64,000 bases of DNA from Gammaproteobacteria bacterium. GTDB taxonomy: Bacteria > Pseudomonadota > Gammaproteobacteria > Steroidobacterales > Steroidobacteraceae. The translations under genes and the position numbers were made by a program. Under the pieces are notes generated by a model that worked only from the letters and a program-made list of their open reading frames with translations, was not told the DNA's origin and did no database searches. Positions 4,581 through 43,066 of this stretch are shown piece after piece (position 1 is the stretch's first letter; each line of letters begins with the position of its first letter). The stretch spans positions 62,001 through 126,000 of the forward strand of contig VGVG01000003.1 in the NCBI GenBank assembly GCA_016874055.1, in the 5' to 3' direction.

Positions 4581-4603
4581 ATCGTTTTATCCCCGAGGAA
4601 CAC

Positions 4604-5335: not shown

Positions 5336-5421
5336 TTTGGTTCTTTCTGGTTCCTCAGTAGTAAGCCGGTCGGTCCCAGACTGAGCGGCTATCGAATCGG
5401 GGCCACAAGAGGTTTTGGTTC

Positions 5422-5859: not shown

Positions 5860-5879
5860 GCTTTCGGGAGCGAAAGATA

Positions 5880-6302
5880 ATGGGAATGAGTGTAGGGTCT
5901 GACGACGGCGATTCGATGTGCGACATCAACACGACGCCGCTTATCGACGTCATGCTAGTGCTCCTGATTATGTTCATCATCACCATCCCGATCATGACGC
6001 ATGCGGTAAAGCTCGATATGCCAAGACCGACAAACGCTCCACCGCCACCAGTTCCGCCGGAGGTGATCGACATCGAAATCGACTTCGACGGAACGGTAGT
6101 GTGGAACGGAACGTCGGTTCAGGATTTGGATGTCCTCGACCGATACTTTCGCGTCGAGTCACAAAAGGATCCGCAGCCTGAGCTACATCTTCGTCCCGAT
6201 AAGCGCGCGAAGTACGACATGGTCGCGAAGGTACTAGCCTCGGCCCAGCGGAGCCGATTGAGGAAAATCGGATTCGTAAACGTTTCCGAATTCGCGGAGT
6301 AG
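5880..6302 (+). CDS. ExbD-type biopolymer transport protein (second copy)
   Basis: A 140-residue ExbD/TolR-family protein with the signature INTTPLIDVMLVLLIMF, one membrane helix at about residues 17-40 and a periplasmic domain that starts with the Pro-rich NAPPPPVPPEVID. The GGGAGCGAAAG sequence before the ATG supplies a ribosome binding site. Two tandem exbD genes behind tonB and exbB occur in Xanthomonas-type genomes, where the second copy can be dispensable for iron uptake but needed for other functions. The two copies share the membrane motif but differ in the periplasmic half, which argues for divergence of role and not a recent duplication. Confidence 0.92.
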   Translation: MGMSVGSDDGDSMCDINTTPLIDVMLVLLIMFIITIPIMTHAVKLDMPRPTNAPPPPVPPEVIDIEIDFDGTVVWNGTSVQDLDVLDRYFRVESQKDPQPELHLRPDKRAKYDMVAKVLASAQRSRLRKIGFVNVSEFAE

Positions 6303-6431
6303 CTCAACGGCGCTGAGTGGTCAGTCGGAACGGGAAGCCCGCCAAGCATTTATCACCGTGTCGCCGCAGTTCCTCGGACCGTGAGGTACTGTTTTTCGGT
6401 TGATCATGGATTTAGTTCGAAAGAGGAAAGT

Positions 6432-7628: not shown

Positions 7629-7661
7629 TAATCAATCTGTTAAGGGGGGTGGGGTTGCATC

Positions 7662-8951: not shown

Positions 8952-9317
8952 TTAGGAGCCGACCGCCTCAAGGGGATCAATACCTCTCTCTGCTGATCCT
9001 AGGCGAGAAATTTCCTCAAGCTCGGCGTGCATCGCCCGCATCATCCGTTCGACGTACGCTGTACGAGCTGCGCTGCGCTCTGTCGCGGCGTCGGCATCCG
9101 GTTTCCACGCTTCGAGCTCCGAACGCGCGATCACTTGGTTCGAAGCGAGCAATCTCTCGAGGGCATCGAGTCGCTCACGAGTGACCGATAACTCTTCCAT
9201 TAGTGTCAGAGTCATTGAGAGCAGCTTGTCGGTGGCGGGGTCATTGAAATACTGCGGTCGCTTACCTTTGGCGACTCGCGCGATTTTCACTCTGGGGGTG
9301 GGTTGAGATTTGGTCAT
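8952..9317 (-). CDS. Small coiled hypothetical protein
   Basis: A 121-residue protein that I do not recognise. The N terminus is basic (KIARVAKGKRPQYFNDPATD), the middle is a long amphipathic helix (LLSMTLTLMEELSVTRERLD and ALERLLASNQVIARSELEAW), and a second helical stretch closes the protein (YVERMMRAMHAELEEISRLG). No membrane span, signal or catalytic motif is visible. ATG at 9317 is chosen because GAGG stands about ten bases upstream inside the end of the methyltransferase gene and the two genes are separated by two bases, so they are co-transcribed. It could be an accessory subunit or chaperone of the methyltransferase, which is inference from order alone. Confidence 0.7.
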   Translation of the reverse strand: MTKSQPTPRVKIARVAKGKRPQYFNDPATDKLLSMTLTLMEELSVTRERLDALERLLASNQVIARSELEAWKPDADAATERSAARTAYVERMMRAMHAELEEISRLGSAERGIDPLEAVGS

Positions 9318-9319
9318 CG

Positions 9320-10468
9320 TTATCCCGCCTCGGGCCGTGCCGCGAGAATCTTCCACAAGAAATTTTCTGCATAGTTCATTTGCGCGATGTCGAGTTTGGG
9401 AGCGAACTCATCGACTGTAACGCAATCCGCGACGAAGCCGCCCTTAAGTGCCTCGGCTGTGAGATCGATGTTGGTCATGAATCGGCTAAACGTTTCGTTG
9501 TTATTGTAGCTTTCCCAGTTGTGCATGAACTTTTCAATGATCGTCTTGCCACGTGGAATTTCAAGGTGCAGCATGAGTCCATTCGGAGAAAGCAACCGGT
9601 GACACTCGCGAAGAATTTTCGGCAGTGCACTCCGCGAGGTTTCGTGCAGTACGATATGTGACAGTACCAGATCGAAGCTGCTATCTGGGAAATCGGTTTT
9701 TTCAGCGTTTTGTTGACTGAAGTCGATTGCGACGCCAAGCGCCTCGGCACGTGCATGCGCATAACGAAGGACGGGTGCGGCGACGTCGATGCCATGAACA
9801 CGAGCCTGCGGGAAGGCACGCGCCCAGACCACTGAGCTGTTACCGATAGCGCAACCGAGGTCGAGAATTTTCTTAGGACGAAAGTCGGGATATTTTTCGC
9901 GGAGGTAGGCAAGAAGAATATCGCCCATTAGGTTATTTTCAGGCCCGAGCGCCCCACCCATGTAGAGGTTGATGCCCTTGTCGTAGATCACCCCGGCCGC
10001 GATGTCATCGTTGGTAAATTCAGTGTGGTAACCACCCGGTTGCAGGTGAATGTCTACCGCGGTGTGATAACGCGGAATGTTCAGATTAGGGTCGAGGCGC
10101 ATCGAACCACGGCCAGTCGTTGTAGCCCCCTCAGCAAGCTTTCTGGATGTTTCAATTAAAGCATCGAGTTGGCGCTCAGTCGGATCGATAACTGAGTCCC
10201 AGAGCATCTCCTGGCTGCGGCGCTGCATGGCACTCCAAAACTGGTAGAACGGGTCCTGGGTCATGAGCTCGCGAACTTCGTCGTGATCGTTGGGCGCACG
10301 TCCCTCGCTCGCCCGGAAATTTGGTTCGACGCGATTCTCGTAAACCTTGTACGCGCCCGGCATCAGCCGCGCCGAGAGATGGGCACGCAGGGAAGAAACG
10401 AAATCCTGCCTAGCCTGCTCATCGAGATCGGTCGTCGGCTGCATCGCATGTTGATTGAACGCGGGCAT
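9320..10468 (-). CDS. Class I SAM-dependent methyltransferase with long N-terminal extension
   Basis: A 382-residue cytoplasmic enzyme. Residues about 195-310 form a Rossmann methyltransferase domain with motif I ILDLGCAIGN (201-210), the acidic ribose-binding VHGIDVA, and post-motif SFDLVLSHIVLHE. The first 190 residues form a helical, family-specific extension (LMPGAYKVYE, FYQFWSAMQRRSQEM) that has no counterpart in generic small-molecule methyltransferases and may shape the substrate pocket. It is followed after two bases by the small coiled protein gene and preceded by a 104-base gap to the VOC gene. Together with the hydantoinase and CoA-transferase genes it suggests a role in a dedicated catabolic pathway. 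Fold certain, substrate unknown. Confidence 0.85.
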   Translation of the reverse strand: MPAFNQHAMQPTTDLDEQARQDFVSSLRAHLSARLMPGAYKVYENRVEPNFRASEGRAPNDHDEVRELMTQDPFYQFWSAMQRRSQEMLWDSVIDPTERQLDALIETSRKLAEGATTTGRGSMRLDPNLNIPRYHTAVDIHLQPGGYHTEFTNDDIAAGVIYDKGINLYMGGALGPENNLMGDILLAYLREKYPDFRPKKILDLGCAIGNSSVVWARAFPQARVHGIDVAAPVLRYAHARAEALGVAIDFSQQNAEKTDFPDSSFDLVLSHIVLHETSRSALPKILRECHRLLSPNGLMLHLEIPRGKTIIEKFMHNWESYNNNETFSRFMTNIDLTAEALKGGFVADCVTVDEFAPKLDIAQMNYAENFLWKILAARPEAG

Positions 10469-10572
10469 TAAGTCTTCTCTGCGGCCGATGGGGTTATATT
10501 GATCCTACCGAAACCAACGAGCCTGTCTGACGCACAGATCAGTCGTGTCCGAAAGGTGGTTAGAGTCGGCGC

Positions 10573-11466
10573 TCAGGTTGACGTCTCGATGAGTTCGATC
10601 AGCTCACCTGCCGCCCCCCAACAAAGCGCCGCCCTGCGTCCGTTGTAGGGCGACTCGGGCAGCGCCCGTGGCGGTGCGGTCCACTCAAGGCCAGCAGGAA
10701 GTTGCTCAACACCGAACGTGACCATCGAAATGGCGGGCGGAAGTTCGCCCTTTCGCGCATCGCGAGGGAACGTGGTAGCCGGCATTCGATCGATCTCGAT
10801 GTAGGACTGCCCCTGCAGCGGCAAAGCGGCTAGGTCGTATCGAGTGTCGGGTGGCATGCCATGGGCATTGGAGAGAACGGAAATCACCACCGGCATTACA
10901 GGCGCCTCGGCCACGCCGAAATGCTCTCGGTAGAACGCATTGACCTGCTGCACCGACGGCCCACCCAAAATTACGATGAACACCCGATCGATGAAATGCT
11001 TGGCTTCAGGGGTATCGAACTGCGGAAGTTTTTCTGAGAACGATGTGAGATACAGCGCCTCGTTGGCCGGTCCGAGCACTTGCGCTGCACGAATCTTATC
11101 CGAGATCGAGAGGTTTGCAGGGGCGCCTATTATTTTGAACGGCGAGCCGGCGAGGGCGGCTACAGCCTTGTCGGTGTCTTGCACCATGAGCTCTGCCGAA
11201 TTCCAACCCATGTGGCGAAACGGAACGTAATTGGGACAGATCTCGCCCTCAACAAAACGTAGAAATGTTTGTCCGTCGCCCTCTGGGAGCATCAGCGCAT
11301 ATCGACGACCCGTGAGATTCGATATCCCCCAGAGCGAGGCCTGTGCGGTGCTCAGGCGTCCGTGATCGACTAGCTCGTAACCGAGAAATAGCCGATAGCT
11401 GTCAATCATCTGCTGCAATTCCGGCGCGGAAATGGTCACACAGTAAATCGGCCCTAGAGTGGACAT
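10573..11466 (-). CDS. VOC-superfamily protein (glyoxalase/dioxygenase fold)
   Basis: A 297-residue protein with two vicinal-oxygen-chelate modules. The first starts GPIYCVTISAPELQQMIDSY with the typical LGYELVDHGRL continuation, and the second covers about residues 140-295 (FIVILGGPSVQQVNAFYREH). VOC proteins bind a metal and include glyoxalases, extradiol dioxygenases, epimerases and resistance proteins. The usual His and Glu ligands are not obvious in every position, so a metal-free or unusual variant is possible. It lies eight bases after the cysteine hydrolase gene, in the same minus-strand run as the CoA transferase. The neighbouring genes suggest an isomerase or ring-processing step, but the sequence alone does not give the substrate. 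Confidence 0.78.
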   Translation of the reverse strand: MSTLGPIYCVTISAPELQQMIDSYRLFLGYELVDHGRLSTAQASLWGISNLTGRRYALMLPEGDGQTFLRFVEGEICPNYVPFRHMGWNSAELMVQDTDKAVAALAGSPFKIIGAPANLSISDKIRAAQVLGPANEALYLTSFSEKLPQFDTPEAKHFIDRVFIVILGGPSVQQVNAFYREHFGVAEAPVMPVVISVLSNAHGMPPDTRYDLAALPLQGQSYIEIDRMPATTFPRDARKGELPPAISMVTFGVEQLPAGLEWTAPPRALPESPYNGRRAALCWGAAGELIELIETST

Positions 11467-11474
11467 GTGGAGCC

Positions 11475-12128
11475 TCAGCGTCCGAGGCCGTTAAGATAGC
11501 TAAGGACGTCAGATAACGAAGCTACTTCAGCGTACTTAGCTTGCAGATCAAACAGGTTGGCCTCGTGCGGTCCTACGGCTCGATCACCGACGGCCTCGCG
11601 TACGACCACCGGAATGAACCCGTGCTGACAACAGTCGACTGCGCTTGCGCGCACGCAACCACTCGTTGATAAACCAGCGATGAGTACGGTATCAACGCCC
11701 AAGGCAGTCAGTGTCGAGGCTAAGGTCGTACCAAAGAACGCGCTCGCGTATTGTTTAGAAATGACGGTTTCATCGGCAGCCGGCTCGAGACCCGCTGCGA
11801 ACGCCGCGAGATCCGGGTGCATACCCGCCTCGAAGCATTTAAGGGCGGGTACTTTCTTAAAAAAAACTCCGCCGTCTCGGCCGCCCGGTTGGTACACCAC
11901 GTTCGTATGGATGACGGGAATACGCGTGTGTCTCGCGTACCGCAGTAAAGTTTCGCAATCTGTGCGCGCCTGTTCGACTCCAGCATAGAGCGGGGACTCT
12001 TTGACGAGATACGCGCGGACAAAGTCGATGACGAGCAAGGCGGGTCGACATCCGAGCGCCAGCGTTTTGCCGAATCCGCCGCGAGCACAGTTCGCGTGAA
12101 GTGACTCACCCACAACGGTCGCGCTCAA
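11475..12128 (-). CDS. Isochorismatase-like cysteine hydrolase (N-carbamoylsarcosine amidase type)
   Basis: A 217-residue hydrolase of the isochorismatase superfamily. The catalytic triad can be read as Asp in LLVIDFVRAYL, Lys in VISKQYASAFFGT and Cys in GLSTSGCVRASAVD. The GCVRASAVD context and the N-terminal aromatic-rich approach to the Asp are typical of the N-carbamoylsarcosine amidohydrolase branch, which releases ammonia and CO2 from N-carbamoyl amino acids. The start overlaps the stop of the CoA-transferase gene by four bases. A second member of the same family lies at 18632 on the other strand, next to hydantoinase genes, which strengthens a carbamoyl or amide substrate. Exact substrate is inference. 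Confidence 0.87.
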   Translation of the reverse strand: MSATVVGESLHANCARGGFGKTLALGCRPALLVIDFVRAYLVKESPLYAGVEQARTDCETLLRYARHTRIPVIHTNVVYQPGGRDGGVFFKKVPALKCFEAGMHPDLAAFAAGLEPAADETVISKQYASAFFGTTLASTLTALGVDTVLIAGLSTSGCVRASAVDCCQHGFIPVVVREAVGDRAVGPHEANLFDLQAKYAEVASLSDVLSYLNGLGR

Positions 12129-13339
12129 ATGACCTTCGCCGCGCGTAACTGGGCGAGTCGCTCTACGCCATACCCCAAGAGTCGCGCGAAGACCTCGTCG
12201 TTATGCTGACCGAGATCGATGGGCGCCGCGCTGTGTACGCCGCCCGGTGTGACCGAGAACTTCGGCACCGCGTTCTGCATACGCAGCTCGCCGAAATACG
12301 GGTGCTTAGTCGTGATGATGGCGTCTCGCGCCTTAAAGTGCGGATCTTCCAGCATCTCGGGCGCTCGGTAGATCTGCCCGGCAGGTACGCCGAATTCGTC
12401 CATGATCTCGAGAACCTTTTTAGTTGACATCGTCTGCGTCCAGGCTTCAATTAAACCGTCCAGCAACTTTTGATTAGTACCGCGCGACTGATGATTCACA
12501 AACCTCAGATCGGTCGGCCATGTCGGTTGCTGCATCGCTTCGCACAGACGTCCAAAGACGGTGTCCTGATTGGCCGCAATCAATACCAGGCCGTCGCTAG
12601 TTTTATAAACGTTCGAGGGCGCGACGTTGGGCAGGATCGCTCCGGTGCGCTCGCGGATGTAACCGGTTTTATCATATTCGGTGATGAGCGATTCCATCAT
12701 TGCAAGAACGGCTTCATACAGCGCCGAATCGACGATCTGTCCGCGACCGGTCTTTTCGCGATGGTGGAGGGCCGCCAGGGCACCCACGCAGGCAAAGGTT
12801 GCGGCGAGCTCGTCACCAATGCTGATGCCCATACGCGCGGGTGGGGTGGACGGGTCGCCGCATACGTAACGCAAACCACCCATAGCCTCACCGATCGCCC
12901 CGAAGCCGGCTCGACGAGAATATGGGCCGGTCTGGCCATAGCCGGACACGCGGATCATGATGAGCTTGGGATTGATCTTGGCGAGCTCGGCATAGCCACA
13001 ATTCCATTTTTCCATCGTTCCCGGACGGAAGTTCTCAAGTACGAAGTCAGCCTTTTTGACTAAACCCTTAAAAAGGCTTTGCCCTTCCTCGTGCCGCATA
13101 TTGATGGTTACTGCCTTTTTGTTTCGTGCCACGACCGGCCACCACAAAGAAGGCTCGCCTGCCTTCTGCCGGCCCCAGACTCGCATCGGATCGCCTTGAC
13201 CGGGCGGTTCGATCTTTATGACCTCGGCGCCCATGTCGCCAAGGAGCTGGCCACAGAACGGGCCCGCGAGCAGGGTGCCGAGCTCGAGGACTCGTAGATC
13301 GGATAGGGGACCACGCTTAAACGTCGTATCCTCGGACAT
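12125..13339 (-). CDS. Class III (CaiB/BaiF) CoA transferase
   Basis: A 404-residue family III CoA transferase, which moves CoA between acyl donors and a free carboxylic acid. Characteristic features are LGTLLAGPFCGQLLGDMGAE near the N terminus, VIKIEPPGQGDPMR, the FGAIGEAMGGL stretch, and the catalytic Asp in GISIGDELAATFACVGALAA. TGRGQIVDSALYEAVLAM and the C-terminal RAPEMLEDPHFKARD are also typical. It heads the minus-strand run (cysteine hydrolase, VOC, methyltransferase, small protein) and is divergent from an HMG-CoA-lyase-like gene 151 bases away. CoA transferase plus lyase is a recurring pair for activating and cleaving a hydroxy dicarboxylic acid; a second such pair lies at 43067-45186. 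Substrate unknown. Confidence 0.9.
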   Translation of the reverse strand: MSEDTTFKRGPLSDLRVLELGTLLAGPFCGQLLGDMGAEVIKIEPPGQGDPMRVWGRQKAGEPSLWWPVVARNKKAVTINMRHEEGQSLFKGLVKKADFVLENFRPGTMEKWNCGYAELAKINPKLIMIRVSGYGQTGPYSRRAGFGAIGEAMGGLRYVCGDPSTPPARMGISIGDELAATFACVGALAALHHREKTGRGQIVDSALYEAVLAMMESLITEYDKTGYIRERTGAILPNVAPSNVYKTSDGLVLIAANQDTVFGRLCEAMQQPTWPTDLRFVNHQSRGTNQKLLDGLIEAWTQTMSTKKVLEIMDEFGVPAGQIYRAPEMLEDPHFKARDAIITTKHPYFGELRMQNAVPKFSVTPGGVHSAAPIDLGQHNDEVFARLLGYGVERLAQLRAAKVI

Positions 13340-13490
13340 GAAAACCTCGATTATTCGAGAGGCATAGAATCGATGAACTTGTACCGGCGGGAATCGTGCG
13401 GGTCAAGGACCGTCGGTGCTGTGGTCCGCCGCTGCTAGAATCGTGGGAGCCATCGTCTTGGTCGAGCGCGAGGAGAACGAGGAGAATAAA

Positions 13491-14408
13491 ATGTTCCGAC
13501 GGGTTGAGATCGTTGAGGTGGGTCCTCGAGACGGGTTGCAGAGCGAGCCTGGCGTGCTACCTACCCCGGCGAAAATCGAGTTGATCGAGCGTCTGATCGA
13601 TACGGGGCTTCGGCGGGTCGAAGTAACGAGTTTTGTAAACCCAAAGAAAGTCCCGCAAATGGCGGATGCAGAACTCGTGCTTGCGGGTCTTCGCAAACGC
13701 GATGACGTTTGCTACGTCGGGCTGGTTCTCAATAAAAAAGGTTTTGAGCGCGCCGTGACTGCGGGTTGCGATGAAGTCGGGATGGCGGTCGTTGCAAGTG
13801 ATACGTTCAATAAAAGAAATCAGGGTGTCGGCACGGACGAGTCCATTGCCGCATGGCTTGCGATCGCTCGTGAGGCGAAAGTGGTTGGGATCCGAGCGCA
13901 AGTCACCGTATCGGCGGCGTTCGGTTGCCCGTTCGAGGGCGAAATCTCCGTCGCCCGAGTGATCGAAGTGGCCAAGCGGGTGGCGGAGGCCGAGCCATTC
14001 GAGATCTCGTTTGCCGACACCGTTGGAGTCGGTGTTCCGTCTCAGGTGACTGAGATCATCGGTCGGGCTCGGTCGGTCTTGCCCGACAGTATTCGTCTCC
14101 GGGCGCATTTTCACAACACGCGAAATACCGGGTTGGCGAATGCCTACGCGGCCATTGAGGCTGGTGTGTCAGCCCTCGACTCTAGCGTCGGCGGGATCGG
14201 TGGCTGCCCCTTCGCCCCAGCTGCAACCGGCAATATCCCGACGGAGGACCTGATTTATATGTTGGAGCGCTCGGGGGTTTCGACGGGGGTCAACCTCGCC
14301 AAGCTTGTGTCCACGACCGAGTGGCTGCAGAAAACTCTCGGTCGTAACGTGCCGGGGATGCTCGTCAAGGCAGGGATGTTTCCTAAAACTGCGGCGGAAG
14401 CCGCCTGA
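13491..14408 (+). CDS. HMG-CoA lyase-like acyl-CoA lyase
   Basis: A 305-residue TIM-barrel lyase of the DRE-TIM/HMG-CoA lyase family, which splits a 3-hydroxyacyl-CoA to acetyl-CoA and a ketone or oxo acid. VEVGPRDGLQSEPG carries the catalytic Arg and Asp, HFHNTRNTGLANA the metal-binding His pair, and GGIGGCPFAPAATGNIPTED the catalytic Cys loop. GAGGAGAATAAA precedes ATG 13491; a longer in-frame start at 13416 is rejected because it adds a non-homologous leader. It is divergent from the CoA transferase and precedes hydantoinase genes on the same strand after a 105-base gap. HMG-CoA or citramalyl-CoA are the likeliest substrates of the family; specificity cannot be read. Confidence 0.9.
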   Translation: MFRRVEIVEVGPRDGLQSEPGVLPTPAKIELIERLIDTGLRRVEVTSFVNPKKVPQMADAELVLAGLRKRDDVCYVGLVLNKKGFERAVTAGCDEVGMAVVASDTFNKRNQGVGTDESIAAWLAIAREAKVVGIRAQVTVSAAFGCPFEGEISVARVIEVAKRVAEAEPFEISFADTVGVGVPSQVTEIIGRARSVLPDSIRLRAHFHNTRNTGLANAYAAIEAGVSALDSSVGGIGGCPFAPAATGNIPTEDLIYMLERSGVSTGVNLAKLVSTTEWLQKTLGRNVPGMLVKAGMFPKTAAEAA

Positions 14409-14513
14409 TGGAAGCCTGCGTCTCCGAAAGGACAGCCCAATTGCGCTGCCGACGGGGTCGCCCGATACTTGCGGTAAATTGTCTTCTCTGAATCGGAGAG
14501 CCCCGGAGGGCGC

Positions 14514-16613
14514 ATGTCATATCGTTTGGGTGTAGATGTCGGCGGCACGTTCACTGACCTGCTGCTCGTTCACGAAAAATCAGGCCAGACCTGGTCTGCA
14601 AAGGTTCCTTCGACCCCTGCGGATCAATCGATTGGCGTTCTCAACGGCATTCAGCGAGTCTGCGGGCGCGCGGGGATCGATCCCACCGCGATCGATCACG
14701 TGATGCACGGGACAACTATTGCCACCAATACCGTGCTCACTGGAACGGGTGCGCGTTGCGGCCTCGTTACGACAAAGGGTTACAAGCAGGTGCTGCAGAT
14801 TGCGCGCTCCTACGTACCGGGCGGACTCGGCGGATGGATCATCTACAATAAGTCGCTGCCGATGGCACCGCTCGCGTGCACCATCGAAGCCGACGAACGC
14901 GTAAGCGCAAAGGGCGAGATCGTCAAGCGCCTCGACGAAAAAGCGCTACGTACGAGTTTGCGCAAGCTAAAGGCGCAGAACATCGAAGCACTCACGGTCT
15001 CTCTGATTAACTCCTTCGCTAATCCTTCGCACGAACGGCGGGTACGCGAAATCGCTCGGGAGGAACTGCTGGGCACCCCGGTCTCGATCTCTTCCGACGT
15101 CGTCCCTGAAATGCAGGAGTACGAGCGCACGGTTACCACGGTCGCCAACTCGTATGTCCGTCCTCGAGTCGATCGCTACGTCAATAACCTAAAGGCAAAG
15201 CTCGGACAGGTCGCGAAAGATGTGAAACTGCACATCCTGCGTTCCGACGGCGGTCTCGCCTCGGCGTCTTCGGCCGCCGAATATCCGGTCAATCTGTTGA
15301 TGTCTGGTCCGGCCGGGGGTGTGACGGGTGCGCTATGGGTCGCCGTGCAGGCAGGGTTTCCGAACCTGCTAACGGTGGACGTCGGCGGAACGTCCACGGA
15401 TGTCGCGCTCATTCAGGGCGGTCATCCGCGTCTGCGTCGCGAAACGACGGTCGGTGACGTCACAGTTCGTGCGTCGTCGGTTGACATTCGTACGATCGGT
15501 GCGGGTGGTGGCTCGATTGCCCACGTCCCTGAGCTCACAAAAGCGTTGCGCGTCGGTCCGCAATCGGCCGGCGCTGATCCGGGACCTGCGGCATATAACC
15601 GCGGCGGCACAGAACCTACAGTGGCAGACGCAAATATCGTGCTCGGTTATCTCCCCGAGATGCAAAAGCTCGGTGGGGACATGGTGCTCAACCGCGAACT
15701 CGCCTACATGGTGGTCAAGAAAGTAGGTACAGCACTCGGGCTTAACGTTGAGCAGGCCGCGCAAGGTATATACAACATTGTCAACGAAAACATGGTCGGC
15801 GCTCTGCGGCTCGTGTCGGTTGAGCAAGGTTACGATCCACGCGATTACGCACTTATCGCCTTCGGCGGCGCAGGTCCGCTGCACGCCAATGCCTTGTCGC
15901 GATTGCTCGGCTCGTGGCCGTCGATCATCCCGCCGGGTCCTGGCGTGCTCTGCGCCTTAGGTGATGCGACCACGGCTGTCCGTGACGAGCGCGCGCGTAC
16001 CTACGTTCGAAAGTTCAGCGAGACGAGTGCCAAAGAAATCGATAAAATCCTTAAGGGCCTCGCGAGTGACGCCTCGAGGGGACTTGAGGAAGAAGGCGTC
16101 AAAAAGTCAGAGATTACTACGACTTATCAGGTCGACGTCCGGTACCACGGTCAGGGCCTGCGTCTTTCGGTCGAGGTCAACCTCGCTGAGTTACAGAAAA
16201 AGGGACTCATGGCGATCTCCGACAAATTCGATGAAGAGCATAAGCGTCTTTTCACGTTTGCGCTACCGCTCGAGCACGAGCTCGTAACGCTGCGCGCCTC
16301 GGTTCAGGGTCAGGGCATCAAGATCAAGCGCCAAACGCTCGTTTCGGGCGGGTCCGATCCAAAGGCCGCGGTAGTCGGTAAGCAAAAATCGTTTATGGAC
16401 GACAAAGGTGTTACGGCTACCGTTTACGACCGTGCGAAGCTCAAGTCCGGCAACAGGGTTCGCGGCCCGGCGATTATTGTAGAGATGGACTCGACGACGA
16501 TTATCTTGCCGAAGCACACCGGCCATGTCGAAAAGTCCGGCTGCATTCTGATTTACCCCGATAACTACAAGGCGCAAAAGAAAGTTGCGTCGCGTAAGTC
16601 GGGAAAGAAGTAA
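14514..16613 (+). CDS. hyuA: Hydantoinase/oxoprolinase subunit A
   Basis: A 699-residue ATP-dependent amidohydrolase or carboxylase subunit of the hydantoinase A/5-oxoprolinase family. The N-terminal ATPase-type domain begins RLGVDVGGTFTDLLLV, and a second phosphate-binding segment VDVGGTSTDVALIQGG marks the hydantoinase A domain near residue 285. MHGTTIATNTVL and GAGGGSIAHV are typical. The C-terminal region is the less conserved domain shared with acetone carboxylase subunits. GGAGG lies five bases before the ATG. It forms a complex with HyuB, encoded 17 bases later. Members hydrolyse N-methylhydantoin, oxoproline or caprolactam at the expense of ATP, or carboxylate ketones; the neighbouring carbamoylsarcosine-type hydrolases favour a hydantoin-like ring, which is inference. 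Confidence 0.92.
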   Translation: MSYRLGVDVGGTFTDLLLVHEKSGQTWSAKVPSTPADQSIGVLNGIQRVCGRAGIDPTAIDHVMHGTTIATNTVLTGTGARCGLVTTKGYKQVLQIARSYVPGGLGGWIIYNKSLPMAPLACTIEADERVSAKGEIVKRLDEKALRTSLRKLKAQNIEALTVSLINSFANPSHERRVREIAREELLGTPVSISSDVVPEMQEYERTVTTVANSYVRPRVDRYVNNLKAKLGQVAKDVKLHILRSDGGLASASSAAEYPVNLLMSGPAGGVTGALWVAVQAGFPNLLTVDVGGTSTDVALIQGGHPRLRRETTVGDVTVRASSVDIRTIGAGGGSIAHVPELTKALRVGPQSAGADPGPAAYNRGGTEPTVADANIVLGYLPEMQKLGGDMVLNRELAYMVVKKVGTALGLNVEQAAQGIYNIVNENMVGALRLVSVEQGYDPRDYALIAFGGAGPLHANALSRLLGSWPSIIPPGPGVLCALGDATTAVRDERARTYVRKFSETSAKEIDKILKGLASDASRGLEEEGVKKSEITTTYQVDVRYHGQGLRLSVEVNLAELQKKGLMAISDKFDEEHKRLFTFALPLEHELVTLRASVQGQGIKIKRQTLVSGGSDPKAAVVGKQKSFMDDKGVTATVYDRAKLKSGNRVRGPAIIVEMDSTTIILPKHTGHVEKSGCILIYPDNYKAQKKVASRKSGKK

Positions 16614-16630
16614 TCGAGAGGAACACGCTT

Positions 16631-18547
16631 ATGCCTGCATCCATCGTCCAGCGCAACAAGAAGTCCTTCAAAAAGGTCAAAGTCGATACCGTCACCATCG
16701 ATATCATCGAAAGTGCGCTGCGTAATGCGCGATATGAGATGGATACGGTGCTTTTTCGAACGGCAATGTCGCCGGGTATTCGCGAACAGCATGACGAGTT
16801 CCCGATGATCGCCAACACCGAAGGTAAGATGGTCGTTGGTCAGTTCGGCTCGTTTATCTGGGGCTTCATGCAGGGTTACGACGGTACGGTCGAGGAGGGC
16901 GATATCTTCCTCACCTCCGATCCATACTCAGTTAACGGCGCCATCAGTCACGCCAACGACTGGCTGATGCTCATGCCGGTGTACCACAACGGTCGCATAA
17001 TCGCGTGGTCCGCGATGTTCGGTCACATGACAGACGTGGGTGGTAAGGTTCCGGGGTCGCTACCAACCGACGGTACGACCATCTACGAAGATGGCATCGT
17101 TGTGCCGCCGGTTAAGATCTTCAAGGGCGGCAAACTAAACGACGACGTGCTGCGCGTCGTGTTGCATAACTGTCGTTTGCCTGAGTGGAATCTCTCCGAC
17201 TTTAACGCTATCACGGCGGCGCTGCGCACGGCAGGCACACGATGCATCGAAATTGCCGAGCGATTCGGCGACGACGTATTTTATTCGGCGATGGACGCCA
17301 TGCTTGAGCGAAACAAGCGCGCAATGCGTGCGCTCATTCGACAGAACGTACCTGAGAGTAAGCAGCATTTTGAGGACTATATTTGCGACGACGGTCTCAA
17401 CATGGGTCCGTACCGTATCAAGTGCAGCATGTGGCGTGAGGGTGATAACTGCATCTTCGATTTCACCGGGACGGATCCGCAGTCCATTTCTTCGATCAAC
17501 TTTTTGTTGAATGAGGAGATGTTCAAGATGTTTGCGGGCATCTACATGATCATGGTGTTCGACCCGCAGATTCTGTTCAACGACGGATTTTATGATCTTA
17601 TGGAAGTCCGTATTCCACCGGGAACGCTGCTCAAACCGCTTAAGCCCGCAGCCTTGTCCTGTCGTACCCATGCACTCGGACGCATCTTCGACATCCTGGC
17701 GGGTTTGCTCGGTCAGGGTAACCCTGACTTCATGTGTGGCGCCGGCTTCTCCGATAGCCCGCACTTCATGTACTCGGGCTACGATAAGAACGGCGAGTGG
17801 TACCAGCTGTATCAGATCACCTTCGGTGGCATTCCGGGTAAGCCGTTTGGCGACGGTCCAGATGGTCACTCGCTGTGGCCGTCGTTCACCAACGTGCCGA
17901 ACGAGTTCCTCGAGAGCTACTTCCCGCTTCGAATCGATATCTACGAAACGATTGCCGATACCGGGGGAGCCGGGAAGAACCGAGGAGGTAATGGTCTACG
18001 TATTGGCTACCGCTTCCTGGAGCCGGGTGAGATTTCTATTCACGATGATCGTTGGCTCACGTATCCATGGGGAGCGAATGGCGGCGAGCCAGGGGCCCGC
18101 AGCCGCAAGCTGCTGCAGCGCGCAGATGGCACCACGCGGTTGCTGCCCTCGAAAATTGATCACGTCAAGGTAGAGACAGGCGATGTATTGATCGCCGACA
18201 CTTGGGGCGGCGGCGGTTGGGGCGATCCGCTGGAGCGGGATGCGGCCCAGGTCAGCTTCGACGTGGCGGCTGGACTCGTCACTGTCAAAGGCGCTAGACG
18301 CTATGGCGTCGTCTGTAACGCCGATGGCAAAGTCGACCAAGTCGCTACTGAGGCGCTGCGTACTGAAATACGCATGAAGCGAGGCCCGAAGAAAATCTTT
18401 GATCGCGGCTTCGAGTCGATCGAGGAGCTTAAGGGTCGTTGTAAGGCCGAGACAGGGTTCGATCCGCCCGCTCAACCGCACTTCACGAAGTGGGCAGCTG
18501 TCGCCGCAGAAGCCATGATGCGCAAGAAGGGCATCAAGGCAGCCTGA
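16631..18547 (+). CDS. hyuB: Hydantoinase/oxoprolinase subunit B
   Basis: A 638-residue HyuB-family subunit, partner of the gene just upstream. Visible family features include ALRNARYEMDTVLFRTAMSP at the N terminus, the FGSFIWGFMQGYD stretch, EEGDIFLTSDPYSVNGAISH, and the C-terminal block GGAGKNRGGNGLRIGYRF with DTWGGGGWGDPLERD. The enzyme is an (alpha beta) complex that uses ATP to open or carboxylate its substrate. GAGAGGA stands nine bases before the ATG. A strong intrinsic terminator follows directly, so the hyuA-hyuB unit ends here. The length is at the long end of the family; no truncation is seen. Acetone-carboxylase-like activity cannot be excluded. Confidence 0.92.
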   Translation: MPASIVQRNKKSFKKVKVDTVTIDIIESALRNARYEMDTVLFRTAMSPGIREQHDEFPMIANTEGKMVVGQFGSFIWGFMQGYDGTVEEGDIFLTSDPYSVNGAISHANDWLMLMPVYHNGRIIAWSAMFGHMTDVGGKVPGSLPTDGTTIYEDGIVVPPVKIFKGGKLNDDVLRVVLHNCRLPEWNLSDFNAITAALRTAGTRCIEIAERFGDDVFYSAMDAMLERNKRAMRALIRQNVPESKQHFEDYICDDGLNMGPYRIKCSMWREGDNCIFDFTGTDPQSISSINFLLNEEMFKMFAGIYMIMVFDPQILFNDGFYDLMEVRIPPGTLLKPLKPAALSCRTHALGRIFDILAGLLGQGNPDFMCGAGFSDSPHFMYSGYDKNGEWYQLYQITFGGIPGKPFGDGPDGHSLWPSFTNVPNEFLESYFPLRIDIYETIADTGGAGKNRGGNGLRIGYRFLEPGEISIHDDRWLTYPWGANGGEPGARSRKLLQRADGTTRLLPSKIDHVKVETGDVLIADTWGGGGWGDPLERDAAQVSFDVAAGLVTVKGARRYGVVCNADGKVDQVATEALRTEIRMKRGPKKIFDRGFESIEELKGRCKAETGFDPPAQPHFTKWAAVAAEAMMRKKGIKAA

Positions 18548-18568
18548 GTGCTGGGTGAACGGACACCA

Positions 18569-18599
18569 GTTCCCGCACTTCGCGGTGCGGGAACTTTTT
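18569..18599 (+). terminator. Intrinsic terminator after hyuB
   Basis: GTTCCCGCAC and GTGCGGGAAC form a perfect 10-bp stem around a six-base loop (TTCGCG), followed by TTTTT. It lies 22 bases after the hyuB stop and ends the lyase-hyuA-hyuB unit before the second cysteine hydrolase. Confidence 0.9.
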
Positions 18600-18631
18600 C
18601 GGAAATTCCGAATGAGTGACATCCTATCCGG

Positions 18632-19258
18632 ATGAGCGACACTTATAAAAACGTCGGTTACGCTTCGACTCAGATTGGTATAGGTAGCCGGGCGGCAGTG
18701 CTCGTCGTCGACTGGCAGCTCGCCTTTACGGACCCCCGTTTCGAAATGGGTGGACTCGCGCGCTTGCATTCGGCCCGCGACAATACTGCGGCGCTACTTA
18801 AGACCGCGCGATCATCAAGAGTTCCAGTGGCAGCTTGCTACACGGCGTACTGCAGCCAAAAGGACATGCCCCTTTGGAAGGTCGCGGCTGTCCGTCGTGA
18901 CTTTTTTTTTGGGCATGAGTGTACCGAAATAGATCCCAAGATCCACGATCCCTCAAACTTCACCTACTGTAAGAACGCACCATCGATGTTTTTTCACACA
19001 CCCCTCATCACTTGGCTCGTTAAACAACAAATCGACTCGGTATTCGTGACCGGTTGTACGACGAGCGGCTGCGTTCGGGCAACTATCGTTGATGCGTTTT
19101 CCCACGGACTTCGGGTTCAAGTGATTTCCGATTGCTGCGGCGACGCCGAGCAGGGGCCACACGACGATACTTTGCGTGACGTGGGCCGTCGATATGCCGA
19201 CGTTATCAACCGAGAGACCGCCGAGCACTGGATGCAACTGCAGCATGGTGCGACATGA
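18632..19258 (+). CDS. Isochorismatase-like cysteine hydrolase (second copy)
   Basis: A 208-residue hydrolase of the same superfamily as the gene at 11475. Catalytic Asp is in VLVVDWQLAFTDPRF, Lys in NFTYCKNAPSMFFHT and Cys in TGCTTSGCVRATIVDA. The GCTTSGCVRATIVDA loop again resembles N-carbamoylsarcosine amidohydrolase. A seven-codon mini-ORF (18612-18635) with a near-identical ATGAGTGAC/ATGAGCGAC opening overlaps the start, and no strong ribosome binding site precedes it. The stop overlaps the ATG of the next gene by four bases. Presence directly after hyuA-hyuB fits a two-step ring opening and carbamoyl removal as in creatinine breakdown through N-methylhydantoin; pathway assignment is inference. 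Confidence 0.87.
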   Translation: MSDTYKNVGYASTQIGIGSRAAVLVVDWQLAFTDPRFEMGGLARLHSARDNTAALLKTARSSRVPVAACYTAYCSQKDMPLWKVAAVRRDFFFGHECTEIDPKIHDPSNFTYCKNAPSMFFHTPLITWLVKQQIDSVFVTGCTTSGCVRATIVDAFSHGLRVQVISDCCGDAEQGPHDDTLRDVGRRYADVINRETAEHWMQLQHGAT

Positions 19259-21435
19259 AGCGCCGCCACTTTCTCAAGGTTGGAGCGACTGCGACCGGCG
19301 GCTTCTACTTAACCGCATCGATTGGGTCCGTGTTCGCTCTCGATACCGCCAGGGAGACAGGGACCAGAGGGGGGCAGTTCAACGCGTATCTCGAAATTGA
19401 TAAAGACGGGCGAATTTTCATCACTTGTCCACAAGCGGAAATGGGGCAGGGAATACACGACGGTCTACCAAAGATATTGGCAGAGGAGCTAGAGGCGCAG
19501 TGGGAAGATGTCGTGATTCGTCTCGCAGGAGGCGAGGATACTTATGTCAATCCCATCACTCGACGACATCGAACAGCCAGTAGCGATTCAACAATGACCT
19601 ATTTCGCACTAATGCGTACCACAGGCGCCACGGCACGCGAGATGTTGCGAGCTGCTGCCGCGGAGCGCTGGGGTGTTTCGCTAAATGAATGCCGCGCTGA
19701 ACGCTCGAAAATCCTACACGAACGATCGGGTCACTCTTTCTCCTATGGTGAGTTAGCAGCAGACGCAGCGCGACAATCTGTGCCGTCCTCTGCTGAACTT
19801 AAAGATCAGACTCGTTTTTCACTCGTTGGTACCACCACCCCCCGGAAGGACACCCCAAGTAAGGTGGACGGGTCAGCAATATTTGGTATCGACGTGACCC
19901 TGCCCGGAATGCTTCACGCCGTGCTTCGAAGATCTACGACCGTGAAATCACGGGTCATCGAATTCGATCGCGATGCGGTACTAACGTTCCCGGGTGTTGT
20001 GGATGCATTCGAGGTAAGTGACGGCGTAGCCATCGTCGCCAAGAGCACTTGGCATGCGCGACGTGCGGCGGACACCATCACTGTGAAATTCGATGAATCG
20101 GAATCGCTTGCCATCAATACGGCAGGACTCCGTCAACGGTTGCGAAATGCGCTGAATCAGGACGATCTCGCATTGATCGCGCGACCGGGACGTGGACAAC
20201 CATTCCCTGACCTTGACGCCACCTTGAAGGCGCTCTCGGTCGCCCATCGACGCTTTGAATGGGAGTATGAAGTCCCATACGTCGCGCATGCAGCGCTGGA
20301 GCCGCTCTGCGCAACGGTCGTAGTTCACGCCGATGAGGTCGAGGCGTGGATACCGACCCAGCAGCCAGACCGAGTTAGAGATGTAATGTCTGAATTAACG
20401 GGTGTTGCGCGATCGCGTTGCCTCTTAAATGTCACGTTCCTTGGGGGCGGATTTGGTCGCAAGTGGGAATTGGATTTCGTTCGGCAAGCCGTACAAATAG
20501 CGAATGCAGTGTCGAAAAGACGACCTAACACGCCGGTAAAACTCACTTGGACTCGTGAGCAGGACTTCCGACACGATCGATTCCGTCCTGCACACATGGT
20601 TCGGACGCGAATCGGTATCGATGAGTCGAATAATATCTTGGTCGTCCAGAGTCGAATCACGGGTGGGAGTATATTGCGACAGATAAATCGTCCACCACCA
20701 CCGGGCGTCGCCGATTTTTTCGCCGTCGGTGACTTAATTTCTAATAGGTATCTAATTCCGCTTAAGTTTGCCGACTTCGTCGAGGTGTATGAACCCGTCC
20801 CGATCGGCATGTGGCGATCGGTATCTTCCTCAATGAACGGATTTTTCTCCGAGAGCGCACTCGACGACGTAGCGTACTTGGTGCGCCGGGATCCGCTGCA
20901 GCTACGCCTCGAGCTCTGCGAAGACGATCCCCGAGCCGTAGCCGTGTTGCGCAAGGCGGCTCAGCTCTCGGACTGGGAACGACCCCTTGGAAAAGGCCGA
21001 GGACGGGGTATTTCGCTTACTGTCGCTTACGGCTCGTATTGTGCTGAGATAGTCGAGGTCGCTGTCAAGGGACGAGGGGTTACTATCACGCGCGTTATCA
21101 CGGTGTTCGATTGCGGTCTCATCATTGATCCGCGCAATGTCGAGGCGCAAGTGCAGGGCGGAATTATTTGGGGTCTCTCTGCAGCAATCGACGGTCAAGT
21201 TCGCTTTGAGAAGGGTGCCGCAATAGAAAGTAATTTTGACAATGCTCCGATCCTTCGATTTGCACAAACTCCGCCTATTGAGGTTCATTTATTGCGAAGC
21301 GGGTATCCTCCCGGCGGGGCCGGGGAGGCCAGTGTTCCGGGCGTAGCGCCGGCGCTCGCAAGTGCGATTCAGATAGCTTGCGGCGAACGTCCGCGGAGTC
21401 TGCCCATCGTTTCATCTGGATTCACGTTCACCTGA
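19255..21435 (+). CDS. Orphan molybdopterin subunit of a xanthine dehydrogenase / isoquinoline oxidoreductase-type enzyme
   Basis: A 726-residue molybdopterin-binding large subunit of the xanthine oxidase family, closest in plan to the isoquinoline 1-oxidoreductase beta subunit. It opens with a twin-arginine-like export signal (MKRRHFLKVGATATGGFYL), and has the family blocks QAEMGQGIHDGLPKILAEEL, TFLGGGFGRKWELDFVRQAV and YPPGGAGEASVPGVAPALAS. Such enzymes hydroxylate N-heterocycles or oxidise aldehydes with electrons leaving through a [2Fe-2S] subunit, but no small Fe-S subunit gene is adjacent. The start overlaps the preceding cysteine hydrolase stop (ATGA). With hydantoinases nearby, a ring hydroxylation before ring opening is plausible. 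Export signal, and absence of a partner, are what the sequence shows. Confidence 0.87.
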   Translation: MKRRHFLKVGATATGGFYLTASIGSVFALDTARETGTRGGQFNAYLEIDKDGRIFITCPQAEMGQGIHDGLPKILAEELEAQWEDVVIRLAGGEDTYVNPITRRHRTASSDSTMTYFALMRTTGATAREMLRAAAAERWGVSLNECRAERSKILHERSGHSFSYGELAADAARQSVPSSAELKDQTRFSLVGTTTPRKDTPSKVDGSAIFGIDVTLPGMLHAVLRRSTTVKSRVIEFDRDAVLTFPGVVDAFEVSDGVAIVAKSTWHARRAADTITVKFDESESLAINTAGLRQRLRNALNQDDLALIARPGRGQPFPDLDATLKALSVAHRRFEWEYEVPYVAHAALEPLCATVVVHADEVEAWIPTQQPDRVRDVMSELTGVARSRCLLNVTFLGGGFGRKWELDFVRQAVQIANAVSKRRPNTPVKLTWTREQDFRHDRFRPAHMVRTRIGIDESNNILVVQSRITGGSILRQINRPPPPGVADFFAVGDLISNRYLIPLKFADFVEVYEPVPIGMWRSVSSSMNGFFSESALDDVAYLVRRDPLQLRLELCEDDPRAVAVLRKAAQLSDWERPLGKGRGRGISLTVAYGSYCAEIVEVAVKGRGVTITRVITVFDCGLIIDPRNVEAQVQGGIIWGLSAAIDGQVRFEKGAAIESNFDNAPILRFAQTPPIEVHLLRSGYPPGGAGEASVPGVAPALASAIQIACGERPRSLPIVSSGFTFT

Positions 21436-21439
21436 ACTC

Positions 21440-22894
21440 GTGGCGACAGACGCAATACGCAAATTCGGACTTTGGACGGGGCTGATCCTTTTCCTGACGG
21501 TGTTGGCCTTACCTGTCCCTGCGGGTTTGTCGCAGATCGGCTGGCATGTCGCTGCCGTCACCGTTTTAGTCGGCTTTTGGTGGTTTACCGAGGCAGTACC
21601 TGTGACGCTGACCGGTAGCCTGCCGTTCCTTGTATTACCGCTGCTCGGGGTAGCGAAACCCGATGCGGTCGCTGGGTTCTACATGTCGCCGGTGTTATTT
21701 TTGATTTTGGGCGGTTCGCTAATTGGATTGTCGTTCGAGAAGTGGAATCTCCACCGCCGCGTAGCGCTCATTGTGGTTTCGCGGGTGAATCCAGCACCGC
21801 GCTCATTACTACTCGCGCTGATGGGTGTAACGGCATTTGTTTCGATGTGGGTCAACAATTCCGCGACCACGGTTATGATGTTGCCGATCGCCCTGGCTGC
21901 GTTGGCTGCGGTCGTTCCAAATAACGACTCGGTGAGCGTAGTCTCTCGCGACCATCAAAATTTTGCGGCGGCGACGATCTTAGCGATTTCATTCGCCTCT
22001 AATCTGGGTGGTTTCGCAACACCGATCGGAACCCCCGTTAACTCGATCGCCATCGGCATTCTCGATCGTAGTTACGGCGTGAACATCAGTTTTGCGGAAT
22101 GGATGGCCTACGGTGTGCCGTTCACGCTGCTCGGTGTTCCGATCTGTTGGTGGATTCTGTCGCGGGTGACACTACCGTTCAAATTTGAGGGCGCCACGCG
22201 AGACGCGGTCCGACAGGCCATCGGGGAGCCAGGACCGATGCAAACACCTGAGAGGCGTGTACTCACCATCGTATTAGTTGTTGCCATTAGCTGGATTTTT
22301 TCGCCATTAATCGTTGGCTTCATTCCAAACCTGACCGACGCCGGAGTCGCAATCGCTGGGGCGCTTGCGCTCTGTTTATGCCCCGCGGGTGATCGGCGAG
22401 CGCACGGCTCGCCAGTGTTGCTCGAATGGGAAGACGCGAAGCGCGCTCCTTGGTATCTAATTCTGCTGCTCGGGGGTGGTCTCGCACTTGCGGATGCGGT
22501 AGTGAAATCGGGCTTGTCAGCCTGGATCGGTCATTCCCTCGTTGCAGTCAGTGGATTACCGTGGATCCCCATGCTGCTCGCAATTACCGTGTTGTGCGCG
22601 CTGATCACCGAAGCAGCAAGTAATGTTGCAACCGCGACGATTTTCATGCCGATCGCCGCGACGCTCGCGATGGGCGCTAATTATGACCCGACGATCGCTG
22701 CGCTTGCAGCGGCGATGGCAGCTAACCTCGGGTTTGCTAATCCTGCGGCCACGTCGTCGAACGCCCTCGTTTACGCGACGGGGCGTGTGCCAATCACCGC
22801 GATGCTAAAAACGGGAATCTGTATCGATATCGTCGGGGCAGTAATTATCACGCTCGTATGTGCTCACATCGTTCCCATGCTCCCGCTCCGCTGA
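21440..22894 (+). CDS. DASS-family (SLC13) dicarboxylate/anion transporter
   Basis: A 484-residue polytopic membrane protein of the divalent anion:Na+ symporter family. About 11-12 hydrophobic segments are visible, with the conserved WWFTEAVPVTLTGSLPFLVL helix and the two substrate-site SNT-like motifs MWVNNSATTVMMLPIAL and TEAASNVATATIFMPIAA. GTG at 21440, four bases after the oxidoreductase stop, is the start; no in-frame ATG near it gives the full first helix. It ends the plus-strand run that starts with the cysteine hydrolase and is likely the uptake system for the pathway's acid substrate. Substrates of the family include succinate, malate, citrate and tartrate; specificity cannot be read. 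Confidence 0.9.
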   Translation: MATDAIRKFGLWTGLILFLTVLALPVPAGLSQIGWHVAAVTVLVGFWWFTEAVPVTLTGSLPFLVLPLLGVAKPDAVAGFYMSPVLFLILGGSLIGLSFEKWNLHRRVALIVVSRVNPAPRSLLLALMGVTAFVSMWVNNSATTVMMLPIALAALAAVVPNNDSVSVVSRDHQNFAAATILAISFASNLGGFATPIGTPVNSIAIGILDRSYGVNISFAEWMAYGVPFTLLGVPICWWILSRVTLPFKFEGATRDAVRQAIGEPGPMQTPERRVLTIVLVVAISWIFSPLIVGFIPNLTDAGVAIAGALALCLCPAGDRRAHGSPVLLEWEDAKRAPWYLILLLGGGLALADAVVKSGLSAWIGHSLVAVSGLPWIPMLLAITVLCALITEAASNVATATIFMPIAATLAMGANYDPTIAALAAAMAANLGFANPAATSSNALVYATGRVPITAMLKTGICIDIVGAVIITLVCAHIVPMLPLR

Positions 22895-43033: not shown

Positions 43034-43066
43034 GCCGCATTCCCCTGAAACGCGCCTACTGTTGAT

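Follow-up and report, generated by a model that had tools for sequence, protein, structure and literature searches.

Several described routes are built from the enzyme families considered here. Nicotinate fermentation uses dimethylmaleate hydratase, which is of the aconitase type, and dimethylmalate lyase, which belongs to the isocitrate lyase/phosphoenolpyruvate (PEP) mutase family. In pairs of the HMG/citramalyl-CoA type, a class III CoA-transferase adjoins a C-C lyase, and the creatinine route couples N-methylhydantoinase to N-carbamoylsarcosine amidohydrolase. Caprolactamase CapAB of Pseudomonas jessenii is a two-subunit ATP-dependent ring-opening amidase (PMC8453981, in its account of the enzyme), and NicF is the maleamate amidohydrolase of nicotinate breakdown (3ot4/3uao; PMC5806882, in its account of that step). 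Here we analyze a locus at positions 8952-22894 of a 64,000-nucleotide stretch, hereafter the window, from a gammaproteobacterium of the Steroidobacteraceae (assembly GCA_016874055.1, contig VGVG01000003.1, positions 62,001 to 126,000, forward strand). Two arms diverge from the gap between a CoA-transferase gene (CoAT) and an HMG-CoA-lyase-family gene (HMGL). One reads sm-MT-VOC-ICH1-CoAT and the other HMGL-HyuA-HyuB-ICH2-MoCo-DASS, where HyuA and HyuB (HyuAB) are hydantoinase-type subunits, ICH1 and ICH2 are isochorismatase-fold hydrolases, and the remaining genes encode a small protein (sm), a methyltransferase (MT), a VOC protein, a molybdopterin large subunit (MoCo) and a carrier (DASS). 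We propose that the two divergent operons encode a pathway dedicated to one small cyclic amide, for which a maleimide-type imide with a five-membered ring is the most likely candidate, and give this reading a probability of about one half.

The cassette shares parts with each of the described systems. As in CapAB, the ATP motifs and the Asp-His-Asp-His metal ligands are all conserved in HyuAB, but HyuA scores 536 bits with CapA and HyuB 194 bits with CapB, against caprolactamase equivalog cut-offs of 1000 each; HyuB also forms a separate clade, and the gene company differs. The creatinine-route enzymes are the closest solved relatives of HyuA, HyuB, ICH1 and ICH2, whereas the partners of the cassette are CoAT, HMGL and LeuCD or an isocitrate-lyase-type lyase, and ICH2 lacks an Arg found in the solved hydrolase. 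ICH1 shares fold, catalytic triad and this Arg with NicF; in the NicF route, however, nicotinate enzymes open the ring, a task that HyuAB would perform here, and other nic-type genes were not recognized in the locus with Pfam or NCBIfam. An aconitase-type hydratase and an isocitrate lyase/PEP mutase family lyase lie near HyuAB in some relatives, as in nicotinate fermentation, although other enzymes start from nicotinate there and CoAT plus HMGL would replace the lyase in the window. The adjoining class III CoAT and HMGL recall the HMG/citramalyl-CoA type pairs, to which the cassette adds a cyclic amidase and a half-amide-type amidase. A search of open-access full text by family names found no description of a pathway with this gene set, and for plasmid pJE1 nothing related was found in the open-access literature, judged by titles and abstracts. 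What is new is the combination of genes, the distinct HyuB clade and the split between ICH1 and ICH2; the enzymes belong to known families.

HyuA carries the ATP phosphate motifs and GxxPGP, and HyuB the Asp-His-Asp-His ligands, of the hydantoinase/oxoprolinase superfamily. These HyuAB residues were assigned after the description of the active site in the caprolactamase paper (PMC8453981). Counted by alignment columns, as were all catalytic positions below, the HyuA ATP motif positions are kept in 54/54 aligned sequences and the HyuB ligands in 48/48. The best solved relative of both subunits is N-methylhydantoinase (HyuA 1.3e-130, HyuB 8.4e-66). HyuA scores 440 bits with N-methylhydantoinase and, among NCBIfam models, higher with CapA than with ApcC (323 bits, cut-off 1500) or ApcA (185 bits). 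HyuAB thus sides with amide and lactam hydrolases rather than with ketone carboxylases, as a preliminary description of the locus had supposed. In a maximum-likelihood tree of 54 HyuB rows (46 different, several loci having been fetched twice), all 40 rows at ≥44% identity form one clade with support 100/99. This clade excludes caprolactamase, the N-methylhydantoinase 7hk5 and the remaining HyuB rows, with long branches, including that of 7hk5, making the positions of the outer rows unsure. The HyuB orthologues are clearly set off: by a hand count of the matches listed, they occur at ≥56% identity in 69 of 148 relatives, and the next match listed below the group stands at 33%. The clade defines a distinct subfamily of predicted ATP-dependent cyclic amidases.

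The gene set recurs in other genomes. A profile scan of genome contigs with the VOC alignment gave 87 relatives, from which 80 loci were kept, nearly all titled metagenome-assembled genomes (MAGs). Together with the window these make 81 loci, many on short contigs, with CoAT in 67, HyuA in 59, HMGL in 58 and HyuB in 51; the usual order is VOC-(ICH1)-CoAT / HMGL-HyuA-HyuB. VOC paralogues without HyuAB occur in L058, L060, L061, L064, L065 and L070. We then compared stretches around HyuB itself, 47 in all (26 of 40 selected by VOC, 20 selected by HyuB, and the window), of which three without HyuB were dropped. The VOC-selected stretches left out were eight in which the contig ends before HyuB and six in which no HyuAB was seen. 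Gene orders in these high-GC loci came from an open reading frame (ORF) caller based on amino-acid composition. Counting only stretches with sufficient flank, the 44 have HyuA in 41/41, HMGL in 37/37, CoAT in 36/37, ICH1 in 33/37, any ICH in 30/33 and ICH2 in 23/38. Rates are lower for VOC (23/36, a biased figure since the HyuB-selected batch consists of loci in which no VOC was found on the contig stretch), MT (14/29), DASS (8/33) and MoCo (7/37). Because of these rates, we divide the genes into a core of HyuAB, HMGL, CoAT and an ICH hydrolase, and variable accessories VOC, MT, MoCo and DASS. VOC and MT had been candidates for core genes and were dropped, given that HyuB loci without VOC exist. 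The preliminary description had called for a search of this gene set in other genomes, and the co-occurrence bears it out; its inclusion of the molybdenum enzyme, the carrier and the methyltransferase as integral parts does not hold at these frequencies.

The core also extends well beyond the near relatives. HyuB at >60% identity is present in 5 of 274 genomes of a class-wide sample and 7 of 299 of a phylum-wide sample, the source genome being counted in each. Many families of Gammaproteobacteria carry the core, as do Alphaproteobacteria and a Bacillota, an Actinomycetota and haloarchaea carry shorter versions, and some copies are plasmid-borne. Among the plasmids of named strains, that of Geobacillus sp. 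Y412MC52 has ICH-HyuA-HyuB-CoAT-HMGL, an insertion element and then LeuC-LeuD; that of Novosphingobium capsulatum (HAMBI_0103, L232) has HMGL-HyuA-HyuB-CoAT-ICH; that of Acidiphilium multivorum has HMGL / CoAT-HyuA-HyuB-ICH with LeuCD near; and that of Rubrobacter indicoceani has CoAT-HyuA-HyuB-ICH, with HMGL not annotated in the stretch. Single-strand runs join HyuAB with CoAT and HMGL in L218, L220 and L233. That of L218 comprises a TonB-receptor-like gene, CoAT, HMGL, HyuA, HyuB, ICH, LeuC and LeuD. This locus further includes a regulator of the PrpR_N/sigma-54 kind and a small VOC gene that matches methylmalonyl-CoA epimerase weakly (29 bits, below cut-off). Even the best matches of its CoAT and HMGL in the compared loci reach only 33-37%, which gives the impression that different versions were brought together into the same set. 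LeuC and/or LeuD occur in twelve loci (L218, L179, L187, L219, L220, L221, L229, L233 and L237, with LeuC in L222 and L239 and LeuD in L241), and TonB-receptor-like genes in several clusters. On haloarchaeal plasmids of Natronorubrum aibiense and Halorientalis marina, the gene after HyuA-HyuB-ICH encodes a member of the isocitrate lyase/PEP mutase family (PrpB 227 bits, below the cut-off of 354), and neither CoAT nor HMGL is annotated in these stretches of ~20 kb. A relative of this lyase (36-37%) directly follows HyuB on plasmids of Novosphingobium THN1, KACC 22771 and RL4, bringing the loci with such a lyase to five. The synteny recurs across families, classes and phyla, and in shorter form in archaea; the gene set is not a chance grouping.

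The two hydrolases fall into different types. Both window proteins have the Cys and Lys (Cys-33) of the D-K-C triad of isochorismatase-fold cysteine amidohydrolases, as set out in the part of PMC5353710 on the triad, with the Asp read from the sequence. N-carbamoylsarcosine amidohydrolase is the best solved relative of both; the structure matches of ICH1 are 26st of this enzyme (2.2e-44) and maleamate amidohydrolase 3ot4/3uao (8.4e-41). At Cys+25, an Arg that we take to bind the substrate carboxylate is present in 58/58 ICH1-type and 0/24 ICH2-type sequences (A 20, V 2, M 2), where one truncated, motif-less ICH2-type row stands outside the 24 and two ICH1-type rows are truncated before Lys. 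The wider-distribution loci (class and phylum samples, plasmids) have Arg in 13/14 ICH proteins; the exception is the second of the two on the Acidiphilium plasmid, with Lys. In the alignments the solved N-carbamoylsarcosine and maleamate hydrolases both carry the Arg, which cannot separate these two substrates. Because of the Cys+25 split, ICH1 should take an amide that also bears a carboxylate, and ICH2 something else.

CoAT and HMGL likewise appear intact. HMGL scores 319.5 bits with NF004283, above the cut-off of 246 for the HMG-CoA lyase subfamily, and each of seven positions to which we presumptively assign catalytic roles (Arg, Asp, Glu, His, His, Cys and Asn) is kept in 56/56 aligned sequences. 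The window CoAT has Asp in the column that we take to hold the catalytic Asp of class III CoA-transferases, which reads D in 60 of 64 sequences, N in three and T in one; the non-Asp rows may be paralogues or alignment slips. Succinate-glutarate and succinate-HMG CoA-transferases are among the relatives of CoAT.

How could these enzymes act in sequence? Two successive C-N cleavages, by HyuAB and then by an ICH hydrolase, point to an imide or a hydantoin as substrate, since a plain lactam would leave an amine and not an amide. Between these two, the imide is favored because LeuC/LeuD, CoAT with HMGL, and the isocitrate-lyase-type lyase handle nitrogen-free hydroxy-diacids; the amino acid expected from a hydantoin would need none of those genes. 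Lyases of the isocitrate lyase family act on 2-hydroxysuccinates, and a five-membered ring is favored because the family member found in relatives would do the same. The most economical reading of the gene content hence runs from cyclic imide to half-amide, cis-diacid, malate-type acid and CoA ester, and then to cleavage. As their families and intact sites suggest, HyuAB would use ATP to activate a ring carbonyl and open the ring to a half-amide, and ICH1, with its carboxylate-binding Arg, would release ammonia from the amide and leave a cis-diacid. A LeuCD-type hydratase, linked in a dozen related loci and present here only as an unlinked copy, would then produce a malate-type hydroxy acid, to which CoAT would attach CoA, and HMGL would split the resulting 3-hydroxyacyl-CoA into an acyl-CoA and an oxo acid. 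ICH2 might serve a second amide without a carboxylate at the Arg-facing position, and VOC, MT, MoCo and DASS would fit the core to a particular starting compound. For the substrate of these putative reactions, an alkyl-maleimide-type imide is our best guess. The preliminary description had likewise taken the locus for a single catabolic unit in which the ring is opened with ATP, the amide hydrolyzed, the product activated with CoA and a C-C bond cleaved, in this order; this is still the best reading. Its analogy with creatinine breakdown through carbamoyl compounds gives way to the recurring genes for nitrogen-free hydroxy-diacids and a core without an amino-acid step.

The hydratase in question may be encoded by a LeuC-LeuD-HMGL-CoAT set that lies ~20 kb downstream of the cassette (Table 1), or this set may be a separate pathway. 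With the adjacent acyl-CoA dehydrogenase gene it is an apparent operon for a branched hydroxy-acid (41870-47236). Its identity to the compared cassette versions is 43-46% for LeuC, 38-39% for HMGL and 31-34% for CoAT. Five near relatives (G014, G019, G007, G001 and G010) have a second LeuC within ~3 kb of a CoAT.

Several observations weigh against an imide route. No LeuCD or isocitrate-lyase-type gene lies within the locus of the window, LeuCD, HMGL and CoAT also co-occur without HyuAB, as in the set just described, and the catalytic Asp column of CoAT reads N or T in 4/64 rows. Some members of the HyuAB clade also keep other company. In the stretches of L228 and L231, ICH, CoAT and HMGL are all missing, and HyuAB is accompanied by oxidoreductases, among them a succinate-semialdehyde dehydrogenase; L226 and L240 have ICH without CoAT or HMGL; L219 lacks HMGL, class III CoAT and ICH; and no ICH was seen in the stretches of L057, L059 and L062. 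The three lyase-bearing Novosphingobium plasmids likewise have no ICH in the stretch, two of them (L237 and L241) with HMGL and CoAT nearby, and in marine f13 genomes HMGL-HyuAB has no CoAT beside it, while a CoAT of 43-44% identity lies at another site. Given such members without ICH, CoAT or HMGL, the clade may serve more than one pathway or compound.

The main alternative, albeit an unlikely one, is a six-membered ring derived from pyridine. The molybdenum enzyme would hydroxylate a pyridine twice to a 2,6-dihydroxypyridine, a tautomer of glutaconimide, HyuAB would open this ring and ICH would free ammonia; a 3-methylglutaconate- or aconitate-like acid would then take up water and be activated with CoA, and the compound cleaved would be HMG-CoA or one related to it. 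The place of MoCo in the right-hand operon, the succinate-glutarate and succinate-HMG relatives of CoAT, and an HMGL with all catalytic positions that scores above the HMG-CoA lyase cut-off would all fit. Yet MoCo is present in only 7/37 stretches and has no linked Fe-S subunit, and the isocitrate-lyase-type enzymes that replace CoAT and HMGL in haloarchaea cut, by the chemistry of their family, 2-hydroxy-succinates and not 3-hydroxy-glutarates. It is rather unlikely that HyuAB opens a hydantoin or N-methylhydantoin to an N-carbamoyl amino acid from which ICH1 and ICH2 remove the carbamoyl group. The best solved relatives of HyuAB and of both ICH proteins speak for this route, as does an Asp/Glu/hydantoin-racemase family gene in L223, but in the tree HyuB branches apart from N-methylhydantoinase and caprolactamase (whose place is unsure, given their long branches), and ICH2 lacks the Arg of the aligned N-carbamoylsarcosine hydrolase. 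The recurring core, moreover, has CoAT and HMGL, often LeuCD, and no amino-acid-handling gene.

Could the locus instead hold two adjacent, independent pathways, with HyuAB and ICH for a ring compound and CoAT, HMGL and VOC for an unrelated branched acid? LeuCD-HMGL-CoAT does stand alone at 43-47 kb of the window, and L228 and L231 carry HyuAB without CoAT and HMGL; the idea is nonetheless improbable given HMGL in 37/37 and CoAT in 36/37 HyuB stretches and the single-strand runs that unite both sets in L218, L220 and L233. We regard as highly improbable a HyuAB that acts as an ATP-dependent ketone carboxylase supplying a beta-keto acid to CoAT and HMGL: HyuAB belongs to the same superfamily as such enzymes and has their ATP motifs and metal-site residues, but the bit scores fall from CapA through ApcC to ApcA, the locus has only the two subunits HyuA and HyuB, and the ICH amidases would be left without a role. 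Lactam opening of the IaaCE type in indole-acetate breakdown was also considered, and nothing related was found in the open-access literature.

Table 1. Features of the cassette and of the second LeuCD-containing set, in window coordinates
Feature	Coordinates	Strand	Assignment	Basis or remark
sm	8952-9317	-	Small protein pairing with MT	ORF opens at 9356; start probably near 9317
MT	9320-10468	-	S-adenosylmethionine-dependent methyltransferase domain plus N-terminal region of ~195 residues; accessory	Methyltransf_25 1.2e-22
VOC	10573-11466	-	Two-domain glyoxalase fold without invariant histidine; accessory	AlphaFold2, Foldseek, alignment
ICH1	11475-12128	-	Isochorismatase-fold amidohydrolase; D-K-C triad and Arg at Cys+25	
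CoAT	12125-13339	-	Class III (CaiB/SUGCT-like) CoA-transferase	Pfam, NCBIfam
HMGL	13416-14408	+	HMG-CoA-lyase-family C-C lyase	NF004283; likely ATG start 13491
HyuA	14514-16613	+	ATP-binding subunit of predicted ring-opening amidase	Hydantoinase_A with N and C domains
HyuB	16631-18547	+	Metal-site subunit of predicted ring-opening amidase	Hydantoinase_B E 2.5e-139
ICH2	18632-19258	+	Second isochorismatase-fold hydrolase; triad retained, Arg at Cys+25 replaced	
MoCo	19255-21435	+	Molybdopterin large subunit; accessory	RR-type signal by eye
DASS	21440-22894	+	Na+/dicarboxylate-sulfate type carrier; accessory	
LeuC-LeuD-HMGL-CoAT	43067-47236	-	Second set, ~20 kb downstream of cassette	Next gene acyl-CoA dehydrogenase, 41870-43033

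All genes named in the preliminary description are present at the coordinates and on the arms it gave, and Pfam and NCBIfam agree with its family calls, that of VOC resting on a structure model (Table 1). ICH1 and CoAT overlap by 4 bases. A search of the CoAT/HMGL intergenic region for operators found no inverted repeat in the window; the corresponding stretch of L031 has one 8-base palindrome. In the source assembly (1.39 Mb, 84% complete), HyuA is the sole PF01968 match and ICH1 and ICH2 are the sole PF00857 matches, and for this reason HyuA and both ICH proteins look dedicated to the locus. The near relatives of this genome are Gammaproteobacteria assembled from metagenomes; several records bear the title Steroidobacteraceae, and several isolate names indicate a lake or bay. 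TonB-, ExbB- and two ExbD-like genes and two repeat proteins, named by eye, adjoin the cassette at 3828-8909. Because such TonB/ExbB/ExbD-like neighbors also flank the cassette in many relatives, the neighborhood seems to be inherited jointly.

Among the accessory proteins, VOC has no Pfam or NCBIfam match at E 0.001. Its AlphaFold2 model (mean pLDDT 93.4) has two-domain glyoxalases as best solved Foldseek neighbors, including Zea mays glyoxalase I at TM 0.64-0.65, which supports a two-domain VOC fold. No position in 16 aligned orthologues has an invariant or nearly invariant histidine, and a usual metal site is therefore unlikely; extradiol dioxygenase and metal glyoxalase functions were ruled out on the same ground. 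Profile matches to methylmalonyl-CoA epimerase are weak (best E 0.054). No gene for a [2Fe-2S] partner of MoCo is present in the locus, which does not fit a two-subunit molybdenum hydroxylase of the IorAB type; the sole Fer2_2 match of the assembly lies on a different contig. The window holds one more orphan molybdopterin large subunit, at 54980-57256 on the minus strand, so that the assembly has two large-subunit genes and one Fer2_2 small subunit. The small protein sm has no Pfam or NCBIfam match and recurs next to MT in relatives, at times without MT. The MT family is much expanded in many related genomes (at least 13 scored matches, up to 41 candidates per genome), with two in the source genome.

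A few loci deserve separate mention. A related island in L122 and L140 combines MT-sm-HyuA with an Amidohydro_1 gene, an aconitase-type LeuC, CoAT, VOC, a TRAP carrier, a luciferase-like monooxygenase, Amidohydro_2, an AMP ligase, a nitrilase-type hydrolase and an aldehyde dehydrogenase, with Pfam run on the L140 proteins. In the Acidiphilium plasmid locus L236, a parallel set at 11422-16195 combines ICH, HMGL and CaiB with two genes of the polysaccharide-deacetylase type, one of which matches PuuE allantoinase below the cut-off; it looks as though HyuAB had given way to a different enzyme for ring opening. Two MAG records titled Klebsiella pneumoniae (L083 and L090) carry the cassette with VOC identities of 66-70%; the titles look wrong.

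What natural compound might the cassette serve? According to the parts of PMC7318184 that treat them, the oxidative breakdown of haem and chlorophyll yields methyl-, methyl-ethyl- and methyl-vinyl-maleimide and haematinic acid, and there are reports of products of this kind in senescent leaves and in lake sediments; for that paper's own samples, haematinic acid is given as detected and maleimides as not detected. It is tempting, if quite unlikely to be correct, to see in the cassette the missing bacterial and archaeal route that mineralizes these alkyl-maleimides. HyuAB would open the imide, ICH would yield an alkyl-maleate and LeuCD an alkyl-malate, which CoAT and HMGL or an isocitrate-lyase-type enzyme would convert to propionyl-CoA-like and pyruvate-like products. 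We would guess that lake, marine and sponge-type sources, TonB-receptor-like genes and the PrpR_N regulator fit such a diet. At a more general level, the joint retention of five or six core genes across many lineages, in part on plasmids, implies that their natural substrate is a common one, and the cassette yields a concrete, testable order of reactions. If true, the maleimide reading would supply a missing piece in the cycling of carbon and nitrogen from tetrapyrrole pigments.

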